Source: Gluconacetobacter asukensis
GTDB lineage: Bacteria; Pseudomonadota; Alphaproteobacteria; Acetobacterales; Acetobacteraceae
Length of the DNA stretch: 64,000 nucleotides
Reading direction: 5' to 3'
Assembly (NCBI RefSeq): GCF_014174375.1
Contig: NZ_JABEQE010000014.1
Span: 1-64,000, forward strand
Shown: positions 4,118-63,199 of the stretch, piece by piece
Position numbering within the stretch: position 1 is the stretch's first letter
Layout: each line of letters starts with the position of its first letter
The notes under the pieces: model-generated
Databases searched by the model: none
Seen by the model: only the letters and a program-made list of their open reading frames with translations
Told to the model about the DNA's origin: nothing
Position numbers and translations under genes: made by a program

Positions 4118-6487
4118 ATGGTGGATCAGAGATTTCGTGTGTGTTTGCTTGCGGCAACAATGCTCGGAAGTTGTGCGATTATGGTGCCTGTGGCGTCGCA
4201 GGCGGACGCACCTCAGGTGCGGCGACCTGCCGCGCCGAGTGCGGATAAGAGCGCACACGCAGCGCCGGCACCCAAGTCCGGTGAAGAAATCAATGTTTCC
4301 GCCTTCCATTCCGGCGGTGGCGGCATGATGCGTCACGAAACCGCACCGCATTCAGTGCAGACCGTGACCAAACAATATATCGAAATGCAGAGCCCGACGA
4401 ATACGGCGCTGGATCTTGTCAAGAATCTGCCGAGCATCAGCGTCTCGACCGTTGATTCCTCGGGTATTCTGGGTGGCCAGATCAACAGCCGCAGCCTGAC
4501 CGATTCCGACATGGGCATCCTGCTCAACGGTGTCCCGGTCGCAACCGCCTATTATCTGAACCAGAATGTCGATTCCGAAAATCTGGATCATGTGACGGTG
4601 ACTCCGGGATCGGCAGCGATTGAACTGCCCGTGACGTCTGCCGCCGTCGGCGTCATGGATGCGCAGACCTACACGCCGGGGCACAAGTTCGGTGGGCTGA
4701 TGGATTTTGCGTATGGCACGAACAATCTGTCGCGTGAATTCATGCGTGTCGAAAGCGGTGATATCGGCAATAGCGGCATCCGTGGCTATTTCTCGTTCTC
4801 GCATGAGCATGCGCGAAACTGGACCGGCCCATGGACCAACGAGCGGCGTCATCTGGATTTCGGCGCGGTAAAGGATTTCGATAACGGCTCTTCCGTCAAC
4901 CTGTTCGTTTCCTGGAATCATCAGTTTACCGCAGCGCCGAAATATCCGACGGCTACCCAGTTCTTTAACAAGAAGCACGGGCTTGGAACCTACAATTACC
5001 AGGCGACCTACGACCCGTCGAACCCTTCGATGTACGGCGGCCTGGATGGAAACATGTGGGACCAGGTGTTCATCACCACGCCGGTTCACCTGCATCTGCC
5101 GGATAATTTCTCGTTCGATTTCAAGCCTTATTACGTCTATAACGGCGGCTACACCTACAATGGCACGTTGTTCAACGCCAATGTCACGCCTGTGACGCTG
5201 GGGCCGGATGGCAGTGCCCTGAGTGGCAAGGTGCCGGCGGCGTCCTATTACAGCGTCTTCCGTCCGCATGCGGGGGCCGTCGCCAAGCTCAATTACGATG
5301 TCGGCAGGCAGCATCACATCGAACTCGGATACTGGTTCGACTATCAGGACAATCAGGTGGTCAATCGCTATTCGGTCCTGTCCGCGACCGGGCAGCAGGC
5401 ATTTCCGTACGCGGCGTCCACCGGGCTCTTTCAGGCCGGCTCTCGCTATATGCCCTACCAGGGTGATTCCGGATGGAAGAATCATTCCCTGTTCCTTCAG
5501 GATACGTCCAAATTCCTCGACAACAGGCTGGTCGTGAATGCCGGCTTCAAGGTCTCGATGATCAACCGCTGGAGCCAGAATTTCGCGTCCACGGCGCCGA
5601 AGGTCCAGAGCAACTTCGTCGTGCCGCTGCCGCAGCTTTCCATCGGCTATCAGATCGACACGCATAACCAGATCTATGTGAATGCCGAAGGCGATTATCG
5701 CATGCCAGATCCGGGATCGCTGTCACAGGTCTTCGACGCGGAAGCCGGCCGATATGTCGGAAATCCCTATAACGCGAAACCCCAATATTCCATCAAGGAA
5801 GAGCTGGGTTGGCGTTATGACAACCGCTATTTCATGACCGACCTGGAATTCTTTAATTATGCGATCACCGATCGTCTGGTTTCGACAAGTGTCTATGTGA
5901 ACAACCAGTCCATCGGCACCACGATCAACGCCGGCAACCAGACGGCGCGCGGCTTCGATGCGATGATTTCCGGACACCCGTTCCATCACTGGAGCCCTTA
6001 TGCGTCGGTCGAATATCTCGACGCGACCATGGATTCCAATTTGCCGGCGACAGGGATGCTCGCGAACGGCCAGACGATTGGCGATTACCTGCCCACCAAG
6101 GGGAAGACGGCTGTCCAGGCGCCGCACGTGCTGGCGAATTTCGGATTGACCTATGACGACGGAAAATTCTTCGGGAATGTCGGCGTTCATTACACGTCGT
6201 CTCAGTATGCGACCTTCATGAACGACCAGAAAATGCCGGGTTTCGTCACCGATTCGCTGTCGGTCGGCTACCACTTCCCGTCCTTCCGCTTCGTCAAGGC
6301 GCCTACGTTCCGGCTGAACTTCAACAATCTGGCCGGTGGGTTCGTCCGGACCGGTGTCAACGGGCTGGTCAATAATGCTGTCGCGGTGCGCGGCGTTCGT
6401 GGCAGCATGATCTCCGCCAGCGGTTCGCCGACCTATTATCTCTATCCCCGCTTCAACGTGACCGCGACGCTCTCCATGGCGTTCTGA
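4118..6487 (+). CDS. TonB-dependent outer-membrane receptor
   Basis: A 789-residue receptor for energy-dependent import through the outer membrane. The ATG at 4118 follows a GGGGGAC ribosome binding site; an upstream TTG at 4106 is less likely. The first 29 residues form a signal peptide (VCLLAATMLGSC core, cut after ASQA). Next come a TonB-box-like EINVSAF, a GGGGMM segment, a plug domain to about residue 190 and a long beta-barrel rich in aromatic residues ending in phenylalanine (SMAF). It is followed by a secreted GH31 glycosidase, which hints that the ligand is an oligosaccharide or glycoside; this is inference. GC content is lower than in the neighbouring housekeeping genes. Confidence 0.88.
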   Translation: MVDQRFRVCLLAATMLGSCAIMVPVASQADAPQVRRPAAPSADKSAHAAPAPKSGEEINVSAFHSGGGGMMRHETAPHSVQTVTKQYIEMQSPTNTALDLVKNLPSISVSTVDSSGILGGQINSRSLTDSDMGILLNGVPVATAYYLNQNVDSENLDHVTVTPGSAAIELPVTSAAVGVMDAQTYTPGHKFGGLMDFAYGTNNLSREFMRVESGDIGNSGIRGYFSFSHEHARNWTGPWTNERRHLDFGAVKDFDNGSSVNLFVSWNHQFTAAPKYPTATQFFNKKHGLGTYNYQATYDPSNPSMYGGLDGNMWDQVFITTPVHLHLPDNFSFDFKPYYVYNGGYTYNGTLFNANVTPVTLGPDGSALSGKVPAASYYSVFRPHAGAVAKLNYDVGRQHHIELGYWFDYQDNQVVNRYSVLSATGQQAFPYAASTGLFQAGSRYMPYQGDSGWKNHSLFLQDTSKFLDNRLVVNAGFKVSMINRWSQNFASTAPKVQSNFVVPLPQLSIGYQIDTHNQIYVNAEGDYRMPDPGSLSQVFDAEAGRYVGNPYNAKPQYSIKEELGWRYDNRYFMTDLEFFNYAITDRLVSTSVYVNNQSIGTTINAGNQTARGFDAMISGHPFHHWSPYASVEYLDATMDSNLPATGMLANGQTIGDYLPTKGKTAVQAPHVLANFGLTYDDGKFFGNVGVHYTSSQYATFMNDQKMPGFVTDSLSVGYHFPSFRFVKAPTFRLNFNNLAGGFVRTGVNGLVNNAVAVRGVRGSMISASGSPTYYLYPRFNVTATLSMAF

Positions 6488-6662: not shown

Positions 6663-9255
6663 ATGAATGGATGCCGGGATATTTGCGGCTGGTGTGGTGG
6701 ACTGGCGCTCACGCTGCTGCTGTCCACATCGCCACTGGCGACGCGCAGCGCATGTGCAGCGGGCGCGTCGGCGCCGGTCGTGGTGCTCGCGTCCGGTGCG
6801 CCTGCCTTCCATGCACTGCCGTCGGGTGTCGAATGGCGCCGTGGCGAAACGGTCGTTCGGGTCACGGCACTGAGCGAGACCATCGTGCGGGTGCGCATCG
6901 GCCGCGACGGCAGCCTGCCGGAGGACGCGTCCTGGGCAGTGCGGCCTTCCAGTCGGACCACCTCCGTGCCGATACATGGCATCGACACGCCCAATGCGGC
7001 AGGCTTTTCCACGCGTGGGCTGACGGTCCTGGTCGCCCGCGCGAATGGCGGGGTCACGGTCGCCGATGCCAAGGGGCATGTCCCTGCTGGCCGACCCGGG
7101 CGCGCCCTTTGTCGCGCACGACAAGGCGGGCTTCGAACTGGTAAAGTCCATTCCCGGCGACGGGCATTATTTCGGCCTGGGCGACAAGTTCGGCCCGCTG
7201 GACCGGCTGGGCCGGACGTACGCGATGTGGAACAGCGACAGTTACGCCTACCGGGAGGGGCAGGACCCGCTCTACAAGGATATTCCCTTCTTCATCGGCT
7301 TTACCGGCGGCGCGTATTTCGGGATGTTCCTGGACAATACGTGGCGGACGACCTTCGATTTCGGCCATCTCGACCCGGGCAGGCTGCGGATTGCCGCGCC
7401 GGACGGGCCGATAGATTATTATGTCATGGCCGGACCGACGGCCAGGGATGTCGAGGTGCAATATGCCCAGTTGACCGGAACGCCGGCGATGCCGCCGCGC
7501 TGGGCGCTGGGCTTCCAGCAATCGCGCTGGCGTTATCCGACCGAGAAGGATCTGCGTGGAATCGTCGGGCGGCTGCGCAAGGACCGTATTCCGTCCGACG
7601 CGGTATGGATGGACATCGACTACCAGCAGAAATTCCGTCCCTTCACGGTCGATCCGCAGGCCTTCCCCACCTTCGGGAAGATGGTCGCGGATTTCACCGC
7701 ACGGCACATGCACACGGTGGCGATCACCGACCTGCATGTCGCCGAGCTGCCGAACGCGGGCTACGCCCCCTATGACAGCGGCATGGCGCAGGACCGTTTC
7801 GTCAGGACAGCGGACGGCAAGCCCTATGTCGGCCCGGTCTGGCCGGGCCCGACGCTCTTTCCGGACTTCACCCAGGCAGCCACGCGGGCCTGGTGGGGTG
7901 GACTCTACAAAGGGTTCGTGCAGCAGGGCATTTCCGGCTTCTGGAACGATATGAACGAACCGGCGGTCTTCTCCTACCCGACCAAGACCATGCCGCTGGA
8001 CAATCGCCATCGCATCGACGAGCCCGGCTTTGCATCAAGGGTCGCAACCCATGCGGAGTTGCACAATCTCTACGGCATGCAGAATCAGCGCGCGACCTAC
8101 GAGGGCGTGCTGGCGCTGAAGCCCGGCGAGCGCCCCTTCGTCATGACCCGGGCATCCTACGCGGGCGGCCAGCGCTATGGCGTGACATGGACGGGGGACA
8201 ATGTCTCGACCTGGAATCATCTGGCACTGGCGGTGCCGATGCTGGAAAGTCTCGGACTGGGTGGCTTCGCCTTTGCGGGGGCCGATATCGGCGGGTTCGC
8301 CGGCATCGCGTCGCCCGAATTGCTGACGAAATGGTATGAGGTGGCCATGTTCACGCCGATCGCACGCTCGCATGCGGACCCGTGGAGCCATCCGCAGGAG
8401 CCCTGGGCGGACGGCAAGCGGCATGAGGACATCCGCCGCCGCTTCATCGAGGCCCGCTATCGCCTGCTGCCCTACAACGACACGCTGGCCGAGGAAGCCG
8501 CGCGTACCGGCGTGCCGATGATGCGCCCGCTCTTCATGGAATTCCCGGCGACGCTGATCGACGGGGCACCGATGGATCTGGCATCGGGGTCGGAATTCAT
8601 GTGGGGGCGTGCCCTGCTGGTGGCCCCGGCCCCGGCACCGGAATCGCCGGGGGCGTACGATGTGACCCTCCCGCCCGGCGAATGGTACGATTACTGGACC
8701 GGTCGGAAAGTGACGGGCCTGCAGACGCTGCGGGTATGGGGCGCTGGCGGCTCCGTGATCGACATGAAAGACATGGACGCGACGACGCCGCACCAGGTTT
8801 CCGTCACCCCGCGCCTCGACCAGTTGCCCGTCTATGTTCGCGCCGGCAGTATCGTTCCTCACCAGCCGCTGGTGCAAAGCACGGACGAGACCCCGGCGGG
8901 GCCGCTGCAATTGGACGTCTATCCCGGCCCCGATTGTCACGGCAGCGTCTATACCGACGACGGGCACAGCTTCGCCTTCCGCACCGGCGCCTATAGTCGC
9001 ACGGACCTGACCTGCACGACAGGGGCGGACGATCGTGTCACGGTGACGATCGATCGGCCGCAGGGGACCTATCACCCGTGGTGGACGGCCTATCGCGTCG
9101 TCGTTCATGGCGTTTCCCCCCTGGAGGGCCACGCGGTGAATCTCGATGGCCACGATATTGGCGCGGCACCCGCCAGGCCGGCAGACCGGTCATCTCTGGC
9201 GGTGACGATTCCCGCCGATGGGCACCGTGCAACGTTAATCGTAAGAAAGATATGA
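6663..9255 (+). pseudogene. Glycoside hydrolase family 31 (alpha-glucosidase-like), frameshifted
   Basis: One GH31 enzyme is split over two frames. The first frame starts at ATG 6663 after AAGGA and encodes a signal peptide and the N-terminal beta-sandwich as far as VTVADAKG; the rest continues in another frame from about 7078 to 9255 (MSLLADPGAPF onward). The switch falls in the GGGG run 7073-7076, and removing one G restores an intact protein of about 863 residues. The catalytic parts are complete: WMDIDYQQKF, the nucleophile motif GFWNDMNEPAVF and the acid/base motif TWTGDNVSTW, then C-terminal beta-sandwiches. The family cleaves alpha-glucosides or xylosides. Either the gene is recently inactivated or this is a sequencing error in a homopolymer; the intact remainder favours a very recent event or an error. 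Confidence 0.85.
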
Positions 9256-32771: not shown

Positions 32772-32934
32772 GAGCCTGACCGAAAATGTGGGCTGGCGAG
32801 CGAGAGCGGCCCGGAACGGGCCGCGCCCGTCGTGTGTTTCCGAGCATCGGAGCGGAGCGGCCTTGATGGCCGCCCGCCGCGAAGCGCAGGAAACGCGCGC
32901 CGGATCGCCGCCAGCGCGCATTTTGGTCAGGCTC
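32772..32934. repeat. Structured intergenic repeat, copy A
   Basis: A 163-nt element whose ends are a 25-base-pair imperfect inverted repeat (GAGCCTGACC at the left, GGTCAGGCTC at the right). Inside lie a hairpin GCGGCCCG-GAA-CGGGCCGC (32806-32824), CCGA-GCA-TCGG (32840-32850) and GCGGCC-TTGAT-GGCCGC (32857-32873). The core, from about 32842 to 32910, is nearly identical to copy B at 55427-55586, while the arms differ but still pair. It abuts and slightly overlaps the stop codon of the porin gene (32933-32935). Confidence 0.85.
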
Positions 32935-34585
32935 AGAGCGAGGCGATCACTTTCAGGCCCACCACGGCCGCATTGGGAATATGCGAGGTCTCACCGGGGC
33001 GGATCATGTACTGGAATTCGGGCTGGATCAGCAGCCCCGGATAGGCGTCGATTCCGTAATAGGCCTCGATGACGTGGGAGTCGGTCTGCGGTCCCCGCAC
33101 CGTGCTGCCCAGCGACAGGCCGGCATCCTGGGCGATCATCTGCCCTTCCCGCTTGCGGTCGCTGACATGATACCAGGAATACAGGATGCCCAGCCGGTCG
33201 GTCACCCGCCCCGGGATCAGCCCGTTGAACGAAATGCCGCCATAGGCCTCGTCGGAAATCGACGCCACATGCGGCGTGTTGTGGATGTAGCCGGCCATCA
33301 GGTAGCCGCCGGCCATCTGGCCGCGCCCACCCATGCGGTAGATCATCTGGTCGCTTTCGAACCAGAACATGTCCATCGGCGCGCTGCGCTCACGCCCCGG
33401 CTGCGCGACCAGCGCGGCCGGCTTGGTCCCCAGCGCGTCCGGGTACCGCGTGGTGTCATGCGCATAGCCGACGACATAATGGCCGGGCAGCTTGTCGTGC
33501 GTCAGGAAGGGCTCCCACGTGAATTCCGTCGGCAGCATCAGGCCGGTGGGCGTTTCGCTGGCCCACGCCCAGCCGCTGGGACCGTCGGCCAGCGGCTGGA
33601 CCTCGTAGGCGCCCACTTGGATGGCCGTGTCGCGCGTGGGGCGGAAGCGCGCCCGCGCGCCCCAGGTCGCCTTGGGATACACGGCAAAGCCGGGGTCGAC
33701 CTTCAGCGCCACGGGCGCCGAACAGGTGACCATGAACGAGCAGATCAGCGGCGAGGTCGCGAAGACGTGGGTCAGCGACATGCGGCCGAACGTGACGTCG
33801 AGCCGATTGTTCAGCATCTTCTTCTCGGCATAGAAATCGACAAGATGCGCCACGACATGGCCCGACAGGCCATAGACCTCCATCAGGTTCACATAGTAAT
33901 CGCCGACCAGATCATGCGAGACCTCGCGTCCGGCGCGGTTCATCACCAGCGTATGGATGGTCCACCCATCCAGGGATCGTGACATCTTTCCCAGGTCGAA
34001 ATTCATCTGCAGCGTGAATTCGTGCACGTAATCCATGCCGCGACGGATGCCGCCGTCGATGTCGGCCATTCCTTCTCCCTTGTAGGTCAGGGAGAAGGTG
34101 AAGCCCTTTTTCTGCAGGCGCTCGCGGAAAGGCATGATCTGCGGCAGCAGATGCCCGGCGGCCCCGGTCGGCACGTAATAGGGGTCCGCCATGTCGGTGC
34201 GGCGCTGGGCATCCACCTCCGACGGCAGCAGCCATGACAGGCCTTCCTGGTCGGTCAGCGCGTCCAGTTCGATCGCATGATGATGGTTGGTGCGATCATA
34301 GGCATTCGCGGCACTGGTGCCCGTCGCGGTCTGGCCGGCCTTGGTCGTCCGCACGGTGCTGCGCGGCGGAAACACCACGCCCGGACTGGACGGATCGGTG
34401 CCGGTGTCGATCCCTGTCTTGGTGGTGGGGGCCGCAACCTGCGTGGCGGCCTGCGCGGCGGAAAGGGCTCCGGCTTCACCGGCCAACCCGACAAGAGCGG
34501 CCAGGCAGACACCGCCGACAGTCAACCGGCGGAACGAATGGGGGAATAAAGTTTCGCCGTTTGTTCTGGCAGTGAAAGTTATCAC
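32933..34585 (-). CDS. OprB-family carbohydrate-selective porin
   Basis: A 550-residue outer-membrane porin. The GTG at 34585 has GGAG about ten bases upstream and gives a long, positively charged N-terminus with a signal segment (VGGVCLAALVGLAGEAGA). A threonine/alanine-rich linker follows, then the OprB domain: KKGFTFSLTYKGEGMADIDGG, GHVVAHLVDFYAEKKMLNN and the ending IEAYYGIDAYPGLLIQPEFQ. OprB porins pass glucose and other sugars, fitting the nearby periplasmic glucose dehydrogenase. It lacks the terminal Phe (ends ASL), unusual for an outer-membrane barrel. Its 3' end touches a structured repeat. Confidence 0.86.
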   Translation of the reverse strand: MITFTARTNGETLFPHSFRRLTVGGVCLAALVGLAGEAGALSAAQAATQVAAPTTKTGIDTGTDPSSPGVVFPPRSTVRTTKAGQTATGTSAANAYDRTNHHHAIELDALTDQEGLSWLLPSEVDAQRRTDMADPYYVPTGAAGHLLPQIMPFRERLQKKGFTFSLTYKGEGMADIDGGIRRGMDYVHEFTLQMNFDLGKMSRSLDGWTIHTLVMNRAGREVSHDLVGDYYVNLMEVYGLSGHVVAHLVDFYAEKKMLNNRLDVTFGRMSLTHVFATSPLICSFMVTCSAPVALKVDPGFAVYPKATWGARARFRPTRDTAIQVGAYEVQPLADGPSGWAWASETPTGLMLPTEFTWEPFLTHDKLPGHYVVGYAHDTTRYPDALGTKPAALVAQPGRERSAPMDMFWFESDQMIYRMGGRGQMAGGYLMAGYIHNTPHVASISDEAYGGISFNGLIPGRVTDRLGILYSWYHVSDRKREGQMIAQDAGLSLGSTVRGPQTDSHVIEAYYGIDAYPGLLIQPEFQYMIRPGETSHIPNAAVVGLKVIASL

Positions 34586-46299: not shown

Positions 46300-48732
46300 T
46301 CAGAAGCCGGTGCTGAGCGATGCGATGGCGGCCACGCCGCCGGCGCTGAGATAAAGCGGCGAGGAGCCGGCGATGGTGGTGCCGCGAATGCCCTGCGTGG
46401 GTTGCGCGTTGGTGGAGATGCTCTGGAACCCGGACAGGTAGTTCTTGGCTCCGATATTGACGACGTTGAGCTGGAATTGCGGATGCTCGGCAAACCACAG
46501 TTTGCGCATACGATAGCCGAGCGTGATGTTGGCGGTCTCGTAGCCGGGAATCTTCTCGTCGTTCATGATCGTGGAGTATTGGGAACTGACGTAATTGAAC
46601 GCAAAGTTTCCGAAGACCGAACCATCGTCATACGAAATCCCGACGGCGGCCGAGAATTCGGGGCTCTGCACGGCGCGCTTGCCGCGCGTGGGCAGCAGGT
46701 CGTTGCCCTTTATGATATTGTTATCCGTCGTCGCGTGCAGATACTGGGCGGAGACATAGGGGCTCCAGTGATGCCAGGGGCGCAGGCCGATTTCGCCCTG
46801 TGCGCCGCGCGACGTCTTGCCACCCGCCTCGATCGGCGAGGGGAGGGGAATGCCGTTGATATATTGCGACGAGGTGATCTGGTTGTTGGTGATGTTGTAG
46901 TTGAACAGAGAGAGGGCGACGTTGACCGTCGAATAGTGGCGATAGCCGATTTCCTCGCCGATCGCATATTCACCCTTGAGCGACGATTGCTTCGAGGCCG
47001 GATTGGGGCTGGAGGTGGAGAAGACCTCGCCATAGACCTGAACGGAGGCGGGCGCGCGGTAGGAGGTCGTTCCGTCGATATAGATCTGGTCGTTGGGCGT
47101 GATCTGGTAGCTGGCGGAAACCTGGGGCAGGGGTTGGGAATAGCTGCCACCGACATTGTAGTGGGTGACGCCAGGGATCAGGTTGGTCGCCCAGCGGGTG
47201 ATCATCAGATAGCGCAATCCGGCATCCAGCGTCAGTCGCCCTCCCAGAAGCTTCAGCTCGTCATCGATGAAGATCTCGTTCATCTGATGCTTGAAATTCA
47301 TGTCGAGCGTTCTGTACTCGCGGCCGTCGGGAAGGGTGACCATGTATTTGCTGTATCGGTTGGCGATGCCGCCGTCATAACCGACGGGCGCGTAGTAGAT
47401 GGGCTCTTCCAGGGCGATATAGCTGTAGATATATCCGGCGCGGAAGGTATTGGTTCCGGCTTTCCACGTCAGGGCCGCGTTGAGGAACCCCGTCTTCTGC
47501 GGAACGGGGTTGATGCTGGAGGCGGTCATGACGCCATTGGTCTGGTAGGGCAGGTTCAGGTCGGGAATGGCCTGGTTCCCGAAATACGAGCCCTGGTTCT
47601 TTATATTTACACCTCCGAAATAGAACTCGGAATAGTTCATGTAGGCAGGTGTGATGTCCAGCGTCGTGGAGCGGCTCAGCTTCAGCTTGATCGGGGCGAT
47701 CAGCACGGTCGACCGGCGCTGGTACTGCTGCAGGCCGATCCAGTTCGTATTCCCCGGGAAATATTCCTTCGTATAGTTGAAGGATGTCCCATATTGTTCC
47801 CACTGCGTCAGCGTCACGGGGCGGTAATTCCCCTGCTGCCAGTTGTCGTAGGAAAAGGTCAGGCCCGCACTGCTGCCTTCGCCCCAGTTCTTGATAAGTT
47901 TCGAATCGACATGATATTTCTTGAAGACGCCCGATCCGCGCCACTGGTCGTTGGTGGTGGAGGAGAAGGAGGCGAACGCCTTGACCCCGCTATGGCCGAT
48001 CTCACCCGTGTCGTAGCGGATATATTCCCGCTGCAGGGATTTCGAGCCGAAGCTGAAATCGACCATGCCGCCCCGGTGATCCTGCGGGCCGCGCAGGGCG
48101 ACGGTCACCAGGCCGCCGACATCGTTATAGACCGGCGCGCCGATATCGGGCGCGCCCTGGGCGACCGTGACGGACTGGATGTTGTCGGTATCCACCATCG
48201 CCTGTGTATAGGGCGTGTAGTTGATGCTGTCGTTCAGCGGAATCCCTTCATAGACGAAGCCGATTTCCGCCTGCTGCAGGCCCCGGATCGACATGGCGGT
48301 GTTCGATTGGCCCAGCGGGTCGGTGCTGGCGGAAATGACGCCCGGCAACGCGGAAATCATGGCGATCGCGTTGCCGGTCGGCGCCTGCTTGGCGATGAAA
48401 TCGCGCGTCACCGTGCTCTGCGAGCGTGCCAGGGTCTGCCGCGCCATCAGGCCGCCGCCGGGCGTGGTGTTGGTCACGCCGTTGGCCGTGCGCATGCCGC
48501 CGATGACCGAGACGTCTTCGCCCCTGGCGGCCTGGATACCGGCGGGCGGCTTATGCGCGGCCGCCGGGGTTGTTGCCTTCGCCGGCGCGGCGGTGGCCGG
48601 CGTGGCGTGCCGTGAAACGGGATGAGGGGGTGCGTGCCTGGAATCGTACGGCACGCGGGCCTGCGCCGTGACGGAAATCAGGGTGGTCGAGACAAGGAGC
48701 AGGGCAAGGAGGGGGCTGGGCGAGCAGGACAA
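46300..48732 (-). CDS. TonB-dependent receptor (TTG start)
   Basis: An 810-residue outer-membrane receptor. No ATG precedes the signal peptide; TTG at 48732 lies seven bases after GAGGA and yields MSCSPSPLLALLLVSTTL, ending in TAQA. After a His/Ala/Pro-rich stretch come a TonB-box-like DVSVIGGM, the shared NTTPGGGLM signature, a plug (SALPGVISASTDPL, GFVYEGIPLNDS) and a barrel ending in Phe (LSTGF). It is the closest paralogue in this window of the receptor at 60734-63199. It diverges from a LysR gene and is followed by a CocE-type hydrolase, making a regulated uptake-and-cleavage unit. Confidence 0.88.
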   Translation of the reverse strand: MSCSPSPLLALLLVSTTLISVTAQARVPYDSRHAPPHPVSRHATPATAAPAKATTPAAAHKPPAGIQAARGEDVSVIGGMRTANGVTNTTPGGGLMARQTLARSQSTVTRDFIAKQAPTGNAIAMISALPGVISASTDPLGQSNTAMSIRGLQQAEIGFVYEGIPLNDSINYTPYTQAMVDTDNIQSVTVAQGAPDIGAPVYNDVGGLVTVALRGPQDHRGGMVDFSFGSKSLQREYIRYDTGEIGHSGVKAFASFSSTTNDQWRGSGVFKKYHVDSKLIKNWGEGSSAGLTFSYDNWQQGNYRPVTLTQWEQYGTSFNYTKEYFPGNTNWIGLQQYQRRSTVLIAPIKLKLSRSTTLDITPAYMNYSEFYFGGVNIKNQGSYFGNQAIPDLNLPYQTNGVMTASSINPVPQKTGFLNAALTWKAGTNTFRAGYIYSYIALEEPIYYAPVGYDGGIANRYSKYMVTLPDGREYRTLDMNFKHQMNEIFIDDELKLLGGRLTLDAGLRYLMITRWATNLIPGVTHYNVGGSYSQPLPQVSASYQITPNDQIYIDGTTSYRAPASVQVYGEVFSTSSPNPASKQSSLKGEYAIGEEIGYRHYSTVNVALSLFNYNITNNQITSSQYINGIPLPSPIEAGGKTSRGAQGEIGLRPWHHWSPYVSAQYLHATTDNNIIKGNDLLPTRGKRAVQSPEFSAAVGISYDDGSVFGNFAFNYVSSQYSTIMNDEKIPGYETANITLGYRMRKLWFAEHPQFQLNVVNIGAKNYLSGFQSISTNAQPTQGIRGTTIAGSSPLYLSAGGVAAIASLSTGF

Positions 48733-54462: not shown

Positions 54463-55419
54463 GTGACGGCCGGACTCGGGGCGGGGCTGGGATACGGCGT
54501 GGCGGCCGGTGCGTTCTGGGGGCTGGCGTTCCTGGCACCGGCGCTGGCAGGCGATTTCACGCCGGTGCAGATCTCGATCGGCCGTTATCTGGCCTATGGC
54601 GCGTTCTCGCTGCTGGCGCTGGCGCCGCGCTGGCCGACGGTGCGCGCGATGGTCGGAGCGCGGGAAATCCGGGCCCTGTTCGTGCTCGGCCTGCTGGGCA
54701 ACATCCTCTATTACGTGCTGCTGTCCTATGCGGTGCGGCTGGGCGGGATCGCCGCCACCTCGCTGATCATCGGCCTGCTGCCGGCGGTGCTGACGCTGAT
54801 CGGCAGCCGTGACGACGGCGCGGTGTCGCTGGGGCGGCTGGCGCCCTCGCTGCTGTTCAGCCTGGCGGCGATAGGCTGTATCGGCTGGGGGGCGATCGGC
54901 GTGGCCGGCCAGGCGGCGCCCGGGGCGCCCCTGCTGGGCTGGCTGTGCGCCCTGGGCGCGATGCTGTCCTGGGCGGCCTATGCCGTCAGCAACCAGCGCT
55001 GGCTGGCGCGGCTGGGCCACATCTCGGCACAGGACTGGAACCTGCTGACCGGGGCCGCCACCGGCATCCTGGCGGTGCTGGCCGCGGGGCCGGCCTTCCT
55101 GCTCGGGGTGCCGGGCACGGCCGGCGGATGGGACTGGGCGCGGTTCGTGGCCGTGGCGGCTGGCAGCGGCCTCCTGGTGTCGATCGTGGGCAATGCCTTC
55201 TGGAACCGCATGAGCCGCCTGCTGCCGCTGACGCTGGCGGGACAGATGATCCTGTTCGAAACCCTGTTCGCGCTCCTCTACGGTTTCCTGTGGGACCAGC
55301 GCCTGCCGACCGCGATCGAAATTGCGGCGATGCTGCTGGTCTGCGCCAGCGTGCTATCCGGCATGGCCGTCCACCGCCCGGCCGCCGGAATCCCGGCCAC
55401 CGCGCCCGAACCATCCTGA
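54463..55419 (+). CDS. EamA/DMT-family transporter
   Basis: A 318-residue membrane protein with ten predicted helices arranged as two EamA repeats (VAAGAFWGLAFLAPALAGDF at the start of the first, LGWLCALGAMLSWAAYAVSN at the second). DMT members export amino acids, purines or other metabolites. The GTG at 54463 follows GGGGGCGGG. The gene is preceded by the GGDEF cyclase and followed by structured repeat copy B. Substrate unknown. Confidence 0.88.
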   Translation: MTAGLGAGLGYGVAAGAFWGLAFLAPALAGDFTPVQISIGRYLAYGAFSLLALAPRWPTVRAMVGAREIRALFVLGLLGNILYYVLLSYAVRLGGIAATSLIIGLLPAVLTLIGSRDDGAVSLGRLAPSLLFSLAAIGCIGWGAIGVAGQAAPGAPLLGWLCALGAMLSWAAYAVSNQRWLARLGHISAQDWNLLTGAATGILAVLAAGPAFLLGVPGTAGGWDWARFVAVAAGSGLLVSIVGNAFWNRMSRLLPLTLAGQMILFETLFALLYGFLWDQRLPTAIEIAAMLLVCASVLSGMAVHRPAAGIPATAPEPS

Positions 55420-55426
55420 TCTTCAC

Positions 55427-55586
55427 AGGCTACTTGAAAAGCCGGTCTGCCGAGCCAGAGTGCCGCGGAGCGGCACGCCCGGCGTGTATTTTTGAGCATC
55501 GGAGCGGAGTGGCCTTGATGGCCATGAGCACCGAAGCGCAGGAAATGCGCGTCGGATCGCCGGCAGACCGGCTTTTCAGGCAGCCT
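55427..55586. repeat. Structured intergenic repeat, copy B
   Basis: A 160-nt element in the same design as copy A. The 26-base-pair terminal stem pairs AGGCT...AAAAGCCGGTCTGCCG (55427-55452) with CGGCAGACCGGCTTTT...AGCCT (55561-55586). Inside are GTGCCGC-GGA-GCGGCAC (55460-55476), TTGA-GCA-TCGG and GTGGCC-TTGAT-GGCCAT (55509-55525). The core 55494-55568 is nearly identical to copy A. Its right arm includes the stop codon and last codons of the GNAT gene. Confidence 0.85.
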
Positions 55587-56073
55587 GGTCGTCCAGGTGG
55601 CGGTACATCACATGACAATCCACCGGCCCCAGCGTGGCGTGGCGATAGGCGCCGGGCAGGGTGCCGACGATCAGGAACCCGTGCCGGCGCCACAGCCGCA
55701 CCGCAACCTGGTTGCTGGCCACCACCATGTTGAACTGCATGGCCGCAAATCCCATCCGCGCGGCCTCGGCCAGCGAATGCGCGCACAGCGCGGCCGCCAC
55801 ACCCTGCCCGCGCGCCGCCGGCGCCACGATATAGCCGGCATTGCAGACATGGTCGCCCGGCCCGGCGGCATTGGGCTTGATGTAGTAGCTGCCCAGGATG
55901 ACCCCATCGCGCTCGGCGACGAAGGTAGCGCGCGGCGCCTCGCCCCATAGGGCCCAGCCCGCCGCGCGGTCCAGTTCGGGGTCCAGCGCATAGGTTTCGC
56001 GCGCGCGGGCAATGTCGCGCAGGACGGGCCAGACCGCATCGAAATCGGCCGGGATCATGGGGCGGATCAGCAT
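55576..56073 (-). CDS. GNAT-family N-acetyltransferase
   Basis: A 165-residue acetyltransferase. The first strand MLIRPMIPADFDAVWPVL and the acetyl-CoA site VAPAARGQGVAAALCAHSL are typical; the C-terminal RHGFLIVGTLPGAYRHATLG is the usual final sheet. Substrate unknown. It is the last gene of the operon including the SSS symporter and amidase (32-base gap), so it may act on the same compound. Its final codons lie in repeat copy B. Confidence 0.9.
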   Translation of the reverse strand: MLIRPMIPADFDAVWPVLRDIARARETYALDPELDRAAGWALWGEAPRATFVAERDGVILGSYYIKPNAAGPGDHVCNAGYIVAPAARGQGVAAALCAHSLAEAARMGFAAMQFNMVVASNQVAVRLWRRHGFLIVGTLPGAYRHATLGPVDCHVMYRHLDDQAA

Positions 56074-60733: not shown

Positions 60734-63199
60734 TCAGAACCCGACCGTGACGGCACCGGCAATCGCAAAGCCGCCGCCGATCTGGTAGGTCGGGCTCTTG
60801 CCCGCGATGGTGGTGCCGCGCAGGCCCGTCATGGTGTGCGCGTTGGATGTCAGGCCCGCCGTCTGGGCGTAGTAGAGATTATTCCCGATATTCATCAGGT
60901 TCAGTTGGATCTGCGGCCGGTACAGCGTGGCGTGGGCGACATGGACATTGGGCAGCCGGTAGCCTAGCGTCACGTCCGACGTCAGATAGCCCGGAATGCT
61001 CTCGTCATTCATGAAAGTGCTGTAGCGGCGGCCGATATAGTTCAGGTTGAAATTCCCGAAATACGTGCCGTCATCATAGGCCAGCCCGATCGCGCCGGTG
61101 AAGCTGGGCGTGTTCACCGCGATCTTGCCGGCGGTGGGCAGCACGTCATTGCCCACCTTGAAATCGTTGTCGGTGGTGGCGTGGACATACGAGCCCGAGA
61201 CATAGGGGCTGAAATGATGCCACGGCCGCAGCCCGACCTCGAGCTGCGCGCCACGGATCGTCTGCCCGCCCAGGATGATCGGCGCCGTCACCAGCGATCC
61301 GCCGACGAAGGCGGTCGACAGCACGTCGTGATTGACCATGTTGTAGTTGAACAGGGCGGCCGACACATGCACCAGCCCGCTATGGCGATAGCCCAGCTCC
61401 TCGCCGATCGCATATTCGGGCTTCATGTCCTGCGGATGCCCCTGGATCGGAATGGGCGAGGCCGCGTCGTAAATGTCGATATAGGCTTCGCTGCGGTCGG
61501 GCGCCTTGAAGCTGGTGGTGCCGTTGACATAGATCTGGTCGTTGGGCGTGATGTCGAAACTGGCCGAAACCTGCGGCAGCGGTTCGGCATAGTTCGCGCC
61601 GTTCTTGTAGGTCGCGGCACCGGGGATCAGGTTGCTGACCCAGCGCTGCATCATCACTTCCTTGAATCCGGCATTCAGTTTCAGCCGGTCGTTGAAAGCC
61701 GTAAACGTATCCTCGATGAATATGGCATTGGTCTGCTGGCGGAACACGATGTCCCATCCCGACATCACCTGCCCGTCGGCGGTGGTCACGCCAAAGCGCC
61801 CCCAGGCATTGGCCGGCAGCCCCTGCGCGCTGGTCGCGGCGTAATTGGCGCGCTCGGTCATGTCCAGATACGAATACCAGTAGCCGACGCGCAGCGTATT
61901 GTGGCCATGGGTCCAGGCCAGGTCCGTCATCAGGCTGAGCGTATGCTGGTGCTGTGGATCGACGACCTCGACCGTCTGCTTGCCGTTGGCTCCGACATCG
62001 GGCAGGCTGAGCGGCCCGACCAGGTGGGTTCCGTAATAGCTGTTGTTCTGGCTTATGGCTTCGCCATAGTTGGTCCATTTGTCCCAGTTGATGAAATAGG
62101 GCGTGGCCGACAGCTTGAACCCGCTGCCCAGATTCAGATGCACCGGTGCGATGATGGACAGCACGTCGTTGCGCAGGCGCGCCAGCTGCCAGTAGCTGCC
62201 GACGCCGGGCGTGTAGTGGGTGTTGTAATACAGCGAAGACGTGCCGTACTGTTCGAACGCGGCCTTGGTGGGCGTGGCCGAACCGTTGGCGTTGATGCCG
62301 GCCGAGGTATAATGCCCCCACAAAAAGGTCAGGCCCGCGCTGTTGCCGTGGCCCCATTCCTTGATCGCCTTGGCATCCACATGGTGGCGCATCAGCGAGC
62401 CGGGCGTCTGCCAGAACTGGTTGTAGCTCCACGAATAGGACATGAAGGCCCGCACGCCGGTATGGCCGATCTCGCCGGTATCGATCCGGGCGAATTCCTT
62501 CTTCATGTTCCAGCTGCCATAGCTGGATTCCAGCAGGCCGCCGGCGGTACGCGCCGGGTCGCGCAGGGTGGTGCGGATTTCCGCACCCACCGAATAATAG
62601 GCCGGGCTGCTGATATCGGGCGAACCCTGTGTCAGCGCCACCGACGATACGTTTTCCATGTCCGGGCTGCCGCCGATGGCATCGGGGCTGAGATAGACGC
62701 CGTCGGTCAGCGGCACGCCTTCCACCAGATAGCCGACCTGCGTGTAGTTCAGCCCCCGGACCATGATCCCGCGCGAGATCTGGCCATAGGGATCGGAGCG
62801 CGCATAGGACACGCCCGGCATGCTGGCCAGCATGGCCTGCACGGTGGTGTTGGACGGTTTCTTGGCGATGAAGTCGCGCGTGACCTCGCTGCGGGATTTC
62901 GGCGCGGTCTGCACCGGCATCATGCCGCCGCCGGGCGTGGTGTTGCGCACGCCGGTGGGGGTGGTGATGCCGCCGGTAACCGAAATGGTCTCGGCCGCCG
63001 GCGCGGCACGCGGGGCAGTGCGCGGGGCCGGGCCGGACACGGGGTGGGCAGGCGGCGCGGCAGGGCGCGCATGGCCGGTGGCGGGCGTCGCGGCCTGTGT
63101 CGCGGCCCGGCTGTCGGGGGCCGGTGCCCAGATGCCGGTACAGGCGATCATGGTTCCGGAAATCAGCAGCCGTCGTCGGGAAATGATCGGTGATCGCAT
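60734..63199 (-). CDS. TonB-dependent receptor
   Basis: An 821-residue outer-membrane receptor. ATG 63199 follows a perfect AGGAGG by seven bases. The signal reads SRRRLLISGTMIACTGIW, an RR-type start that resembles a Tat signal, unusual for a barrel protein. After an Ala/Pro-rich stretch come a TonB-box-like TISVTGGI, the NTTPGGGMM signature, the plug (GYLVEGVPLTDGVY) and a barrel ending in Phe (AVTVGF). A paralogue lies at 46300-48732. It heads an operon with aminotransferase, amidase and symporter, so its ligand is probably an amide- or amine-containing compound; that is inference. Confidence 0.9.
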   Translation of the reverse strand: MRSPIISRRRLLISGTMIACTGIWAPAPDSRAATQAATPATGHARPAAPPAHPVSGPAPRTAPRAAPAAETISVTGGITTPTGVRNTTPGGGMMPVQTAPKSRSEVTRDFIAKKPSNTTVQAMLASMPGVSYARSDPYGQISRGIMVRGLNYTQVGYLVEGVPLTDGVYLSPDAIGGSPDMENVSSVALTQGSPDISSPAYYSVGAEIRTTLRDPARTAGGLLESSYGSWNMKKEFARIDTGEIGHTGVRAFMSYSWSYNQFWQTPGSLMRHHVDAKAIKEWGHGNSAGLTFLWGHYTSAGINANGSATPTKAAFEQYGTSSLYYNTHYTPGVGSYWQLARLRNDVLSIIAPVHLNLGSGFKLSATPYFINWDKWTNYGEAISQNNSYYGTHLVGPLSLPDVGANGKQTVEVVDPQHQHTLSLMTDLAWTHGHNTLRVGYWYSYLDMTERANYAATSAQGLPANAWGRFGVTTADGQVMSGWDIVFRQQTNAIFIEDTFTAFNDRLKLNAGFKEVMMQRWVSNLIPGAATYKNGANYAEPLPQVSASFDITPNDQIYVNGTTSFKAPDRSEAYIDIYDAASPIPIQGHPQDMKPEYAIGEELGYRHSGLVHVSAALFNYNMVNHDVLSTAFVGGSLVTAPIILGGQTIRGAQLEVGLRPWHHFSPYVSGSYVHATTDNDFKVGNDVLPTAGKIAVNTPSFTGAIGLAYDDGTYFGNFNLNYIGRRYSTFMNDESIPGYLTSDVTLGYRLPNVHVAHATLYRPQIQLNLMNIGNNLYYAQTAGLTSNAHTMTGLRGTTIAGKSPTYQIGGGFAIAGAVTVGF

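Follow-up and report, generated by a model that had tools for sequence, protein, structure and literature searches.

The described systems closest to the repeat reported here are the CIR repeats of alphaproteobacteria, reportedly going back to Chen and Shapiro (2003), the RIME repeats of rhizobia, reportedly going back to Osteras (1995), the Correia/NEMIS elements of Neisseria and the IS5-family MITEs considered further below. CIR (Caulobacter CcrM-associated intergenic repeats) are described as RNA-like inverted repeats of ~110 bp, present in several alphaproteobacteria and made of two hairpin arms and a linker, with unpaired 5' and 3' ends and GANTC at a loop (PMC2229807). In the same source, Correia/NEMIS elements are MITE-like, measure 107-155 bp and have a stem formed from their two ends (PMC2229807). 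RIME are presented elsewhere as dispersed intergenic mosaic repeats (PMC2573895, PMC2245857, PMC1273637). Judged from these descriptions, the present repeat is like CIR and RIME in kind and distribution, and like Correia/NEMIS in being MITE-like with ends that form a stem. It is set apart from CIR, as far as that description goes, by its ends, which pair in all three of our consensus structures whereas those of CIR are unpaired, and by the rarity of GANTC, found in only 2 of 42, 18 of 56 and 23 of 58 sequences and thus absent from most. Two real Correia copies scored 19.3 and 19.7 bits under the distant-family model, within the range of reverse-strand palindromes (11.5-29.5); a relationship to Correia is unsupported, the scores being no better than those of the reverse strands of other palindromes. 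The repeat family may overlap the CIR or RIME repeats, both known here by description; among the genera listed for the 36 plasmid records matched by a Rhizobiales-type copy, Ensifer appeared once and Sinorhizobium was absent. In the literature compared, which included PMC2267715 and PMC10969869, we recognised no publication on this repeat family.

The window, i.e. the whole stretch of DNA analysed (64,000 nt, positions 1 to 64,000 of contig NZ_JABEQE010000014.1 of Gluconacetobacter asukensis), holds two copies, A and B (Table 1), each of which is probably a non-autonomous, MITE-like transposable repeat carrying an RNA or single-strand-DNA fold under selection. Their plus strand forms a closed rod made of an outer stem of ~25-30 pairs, a small inner hairpin that is optional, a second stem and the core hairpin, with fold-energy z-scores of -9.25 (A) and -10.60 (B) for 191-nt stretches against 200 dinucleotide shuffles; the reverse strand of copy A folded more weakly than its plus strand (-114.9 vs -129.3 kcal/mol). 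An earlier note, made from the letters of the window, had described two copies with a common core, diverged yet complementary outer arms, an exchanged inner hairpin and a TTGAT-loop hairpin altered pair by pair, and our comparison bears out this description. Both copies lie where it had placed them, B to within 1 nt by alignment and covariance model; the common core is 82% identical over 101 nt; the outer arms have diverged in sequence with their complementarity kept; and the replacement of GCGGCCCG/CGGGCCGC in A by GTGCCGC/GCGGCAC in B is real, like the pairwise changes of the TTGAT-loop hairpin, in both the alignment and the table of 42 copies. Letters occupied the inner-hairpin position in only 2 of the 58 sequences of the distant set described below. 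The consensus from distant relatives shows a core hairpin whose halves almost repeat one another (ACCGGAGC / ACCGGAAGC).

Table 1 Positions of copies A and B, of their parts and of the adjoining open reading frames in the window.
Feature	Positions	Strand	Remark
Copy A, whole element, 163 nt	32772..32934	+ (structured strand)	covariance model R1 matches 1-162 of 162
Copy A left outer arm, starting GAGCCTGACC	32772..32804	+	outer helix
Copy A inner hairpin GCGGCCCG/CGGGCCGC	32806..32824	+	
Copy A second stem, 5' side	32826..32841	+	
Copy A conserved core hairpin with TTGAT loop	32842..32888	+	
Copy A second stem, 3' side	32889..32903	+	
Copy A right outer arm, ending GGTCAGGCTC	32904..32934	+	
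ORF, 550 aa, TGA stop overlapping copy A right end by 2 nt	32933..34585	-	
Copy B, whole element, 162 nt, arms diverged	55426..55587	+	alignment and covariance model
ORF, 318 aa, ending 6 nt left of copy B	54463..55419	+	
ORF, 165 aa, stop codon 12 nt into copy B right arm	55576..56073	-	

The same note knew of no Rfam family of this design, and this agrees with our searches, in which no family reached its gathering score anywhere in the window and nothing appeared at E<=5 in two loci around copies (L001 and L045). Membership was likewise rejected for six distant loci, which gave five matches at E<=1, none of them at gathering score; the best sub-threshold match, to the Caulobacter sRNA CC2171 (38.4 bits vs 75), lay at 7135-7307 of a Sphingosinicella locus (L316), away from the element at ~5696-5835. 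Elsewhere in the window, three similar same-strand pairs lie ~14.4 kb apart (46331-46412 with 60765-60846, 71% identity; 46937-46971 with 61383-61417, 91%; 47853-47913 with 62323-62383, 79%), and are probably paralogous genes.

Searching its own genome with copy A by blastn returned 58 matches, 48 of them long, and a covariance model built from 42 copies found 136 matches at E<=0.001, far more than chance would give and possibly a lower bound since 150 candidates were scored. All 14 genomes of the genus that were searched, the own genome included, held matches (8 to 136 per genome). Wider draws, in which few candidates were scored per genome so that the figures are genomes matched and not copy numbers, gave a match in 50 of 249 genomes and 29 of 102 genera of the taxonomic family, in 37 of 299 genomes of the order, and, among 385 genomes of the class, in 18 with model R2 (E<=1e-4) and 33 with the broader model R3 (E<=1e-6). 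An exact pattern of the core occurred in at least 118 stretches of named genomes; among the matches listed, Mesorhizobium was the most frequent genus, and Rhizobium, Agrobacterium, Bosea, Inquilinus, Devosia, Phyllobacterium, Brucella, Stappia, Asticcacaulis, Sphingobium and Acidocella were found among others, so that the core is known from named genomes of Rhizobiales, Sphingomonadales and Caulobacteraceae. The same pattern was present in 45 stretches of a viral collection (IMG/VR contigs, L417-L461). In a blastn search against plasmids and phages, copy A had no match; a copy from outside the class matched one Halomonas record.

At the level of the phylum, R3 matched 75 of 398 genomes at E<=1e-6, 21 belonging to the class and 54 lying outside it. 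E-values are rough for long palindromes, and 16 non-class matches were therefore read individually: 14 of them carried AGCGSAG...TGAGCA in the core hairpin, and nine of the 16 loci, re-scored without filters, reached 52-69 bits on one strand and 11.5-29.5 on the other. This supports regarding the matches outside the class as putative distant, weaker relatives, a reading of a sample and not a census. Several relatives outside the class (within L478-L493) had a left-hand TAG answered by its complement CTA at the opposite end, and others had ends starting RRCCTGTTC.

Mobility was evident from comparisons of the same site between congeners. At C5_124250, the exact empty site of congener G001 reads TGGC-TCA-GACTTGG where the own genome reads TGGC-TCA[element]TCA-GACTTGG, i.e. 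a 3-bp TCA duplication; a second empty site with a TCA duplication (C19_44913) showed a small extra difference in the left flank; and a site at an rpoD-like 3' end, where the insertion carries one extra C at the left, was filled in the own genome and, of 13 congeners, in G010, the remaining 12 being empty. One copy of the own genome (L019, C3:188174-188336), present at the same place in 1 of 13 congeners, immediately adjoins the stop codon of an ORF that by eye reads as rpoD. Across ten sites tested, a recognisable element was present in 15 of 88 congener sites. Among the 42 full copies, TCA flanked the left end in 18 and the right end in 23, and the same triplet stood on both sides in 13 (11 TCA, 2 TGA); the other 29 lacked identical flanking triplets, so that clean duplications are a minority, and neither A nor B had one. 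The sites of A and of B each lacked a full element in all eight congeners with a match; short palindromes at the site of B in G010, G001 and G009 may be remnants. Some empty-looking sites (C1_170053, C14_55426) are losses rather than original empty sites, since remnants are present. Internal deletions with the arms kept were also seen, as were 57-nt arms-only palindromes. Species thus differ in which sites are filled, and older copies are common to species and decay by internal deletion. The element (~140-165 nt) is short, non-coding and present in many copies, ends in the genus in inverted repeats (GAGCCTG.../...CAGGCTC), and shows a target-site duplication and empty sites (C5_124250, C19_44913), the clean duplication being confined to a minority of copies; these are the features of a MITE.

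We then turned to placement, using the 42 full copies, i.e. 50 aligned rows (blastn matches, a subset of the 136 model matches) minus eight with shortened or tandem-joined arms, and counting ORFs that passed a length and GC3 filter. In 31 copies an opposite-strand ORF had its stop no more than 3 nt from the right end, and in 22 of these exactly there; in the remaining copies the stop was inside the arm (four), the left end was exactly at a plus-strand stop (two), or there was none (five). One of the 31 (C19_24618) had a plus-strand stop at its left end too; at this site in congener G001 (L268), the element stands at the same gene end, inverted relative to the own genome. In copy A, the final two bases of the right arm fall in a TCA which serves the right-hand ORF as its stop. 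Among 93,915 control positions in the flanks, 0.8% lay within 3 nt and 0.1% exactly at a stop, a control that overstates targeting because coding positions, from which an insertion would be lost, are counted too. TCA occurred ~1.9 times per 150 nt to the left of a copy and 21 of the 23 right-hand TCAs were stop codons, still an excess. By a simple ORF rule applied without a control, adjacency to an ORF end was found at 16 of 25 loci in other genera of the taxonomic family and at 13 of 28 loci outside it, and of five annotated plasmid loci, three had a gene end within ~3 to 14 nt of the match and two did not.

A TGA stop reads TCA on the other strand, so that a transposon targeting TCA/TNA can land there while the host gene keeps its stop. 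Clean insertions duplicate 3 bp (mostly TCA, sometimes TGA), and the commonest place is an ORF's stop codon, which is TCA on the structured strand; the host ORF thereby retains a stop, and the element stands at its 3' end in one preferred orientation. A transposase acting in trans would move the element at TNA-type targets, and if TCA were preferred to TGA, an orientation bias would follow. TNA-type 3-bp duplications are known for IS5/IS1031-like enzymes. Mobility alone leaves the conserved core unexplained, because an internal fold is not required for DDE transposition; the folded strand, as RNA or as single-stranded DNA, may be needed for movement, or may make gene-end insertions harmless or useful.

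The fold was followed through alignments of increasing depth. Among the 42 copies of the own genome, double changes that kept pairing were seen in 35 of 63 pairs. In a set of 56 sequences (31 from the genus and 25 from other genera), 51 of 63 pairs changed on both sides and 96.8% of cells paired, with all five measures above those of every one of 500 shuffles and 33-44% pairing in slid controls; in a set of 58 more distant sequences, none of them from the genus, 53 of 62 pairs changed on both sides and 90.7% of cells paired (0 of 500 shuffles). Both alignments were fitted to a model and hence lean towards structure; two others (A2 and A4), in which reverse-strand rows were present, were left out. 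G.U cells outnumbered A.C cells by 272 to 32 in the 56-sequence set and by 252 to 36 in the 58-sequence set (8.5-fold and 7-fold), in 56 of 56 and 53 of 58 individual sequences, respectively, with the reverse in 3 of the 58, and by 63 to 20 in variable pairs having both C-G and U-A types. As G.U far exceeds A.C, the strand drawn as plus is the folded strand.

Orthologous copies gave 38 comparisons passing an identity and gap filter, which was applied because forced global alignment had paired unrelated DNA and overstated presence (e.g. C14_32772). They contained 69 double changes that exchanged one Watson-Crick pair for another, and single changes that turned a Watson-Crick pair into G.U (37), A.C (24) or another mismatch (27); one of the 38, C4_117689 vs G010, is visibly misaligned by a deletion and yields nine of the 24 changes to A.C. 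The double changes often came in blocks, up to nine in one copy, which points to exchange between copies beside stepwise change and weakens a simple covariation argument, since copy exchange or hairpin-templated repair may feed the signal. Statistically, the fold is kept by pairing through change on both sides, on one strand. The further copies with paired arms that had been predicted for related genomes were found in all 14 genomes of the genus that were searched, the own one included, with covariation across genera, and the alternatives offered in the earlier note, an RNA fold under selection and a mobile palindromic element, turned out to hold together, the repeat being both mobile and a compensated, strand-specific fold. 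Two findings go beyond that note, namely how copies are placed and oriented at stop codons and how widely they occur through the class.

Other explanations have to be weighed against this evidence. The covariation could be mainly a matter of DNA, with gene conversion and hairpin-templated repair re-perfecting the palindrome independently of selection on RNA or single strands. The block-wise double changes speak for it, and so do the internal deletions with arms kept and the one inverted copy in a congener, but such processes are expected to be strand-neutral, which the 8.5-fold and 7-fold excesses of G.U over A.C contradict (the asymmetry is milder in the ortholog comparison, 37 to 24); moreover, conserved U.G pairs persist rather than being perfected, and the core survives across the class. 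We consider this explanation highly improbable. Selection acting on the fold could, on the other hand, be that of the host: a multiplied, beneficial structured RNA (3'-UTR element, terminator or processing site) whose structured strand would be read as part of the convergent left-hand gene's transcript and would protect or terminate the transcripts of tail-to-tail genes. Strong strand-specific covariation and the gene-end location agree with such a role, and so do a same-strand filtered ORF ending within 300 nt to the left in 30 of 42 copies and the short palindromes that congeners carry at several of these sites (C3_176849, C4_151574, C14_55426). However, 12 of the 42 copies have no such left-hand ORF and some of the 30 are doubtful, e.g. 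that of copy A, where the same-strand ORF overlaps a minus-strand ORF of 400 aa; no U-tract was visible by eye; and most sites are not common to congeners (15 of 88 filled), unlike those of a regulator that the host requires. The abutting ORF also counts against it, since it lies on the opposite strand and its transcript therefore carries the strand with A.C mismatches. A host RNA of this kind seems to us unlikely.

For integron attC sites and REP/RAYT repeats, recognition depends on the shape that a folded strand takes, and the present element could similarly be a transposon read by a folded single DNA strand or an RNA shape instead of by its end sequence, in which case the fold would be the transposition signal and the arms would be free to drift as long as they paired. 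The arms are indeed very different between genera and still paired over ~25-30 bp, mainly the core keeps its sequence, the strands are asymmetric, and the elements have a preferred orientation at gene ends, as attC sites likewise do. Movement of the attC or IS200/REP type is not known to leave a 3-bp duplication, whereas one was seen here, which departs from the duplication-free movement of those systems; the end consensus is kept within the genus, and some relatives outside the class have ends of a similar kind (RRCCTG). We regard this mode of recognition as quite doubtful. A MITE-like repeat moved in trans, with a selected fold, remains our preferred reading.

A broader proposal, which we put forward tentatively, is that these are phylum-wide transposable repeats, present in alphaproteobacteria and, in a related form, in other Pseudomonadota, whose mobility signal would be a folded single strand with the conserved core AGCGSAG...TGAGCA and not the end sequence, delivery to stop codons allowing a harmless spread at gene ends. 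If our reading is right, genomes of the genus carry up to about a hundred unannotated elements each, all of one old fold that is absent from the Rfam library searched and common to relatives in rhizobia and sphingomonads. The placement at stop codons suggests how mobile DNA may spread without damaging genes, and the strand-specific conservation raises the direct question of what reads the fold. As a caution, covariation screens can pick up mobile palindromes.

A partner that could supply the transposase was sought in the own genome by one Pfam family and one exact end pattern, and neither retrieved an autonomous element sharing the ends of the repeat. IS5-family (IS1031-type) MITEs fit the TNA-type 3-bp duplications and differ in their ends as represented by the six DUF4096 transposase loci of the own genome: an IS5-type partner among these was rejected, with no element-like end within 1.5 kb of any of the six, other inverted ends at three and no convincing ends at the remaining three. 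The end pattern GAGSCTGNYYGRAAA occurred at 54 sites of the own genome, and the reversed control pattern at none. Fourteen end-like sites lying apart from the listed copies, in 13 stretches, had no IS and consisted of solo arms, shortened copies (one of them ended by a contig end) and 57-nt arms-only palindromes; one further site (C1:310824, 66 nt from a listed copy) was left out of this reading, and the rest were in or beside listed copies. The 57-nt palindromes include L500, L507 and L509 (C1:308656-308712, C8:160020-160076 and C15:51147-51203 of the own genome), and are perhaps products of slippage at repeated GGAAA, or else an independent, smaller mobile unit.
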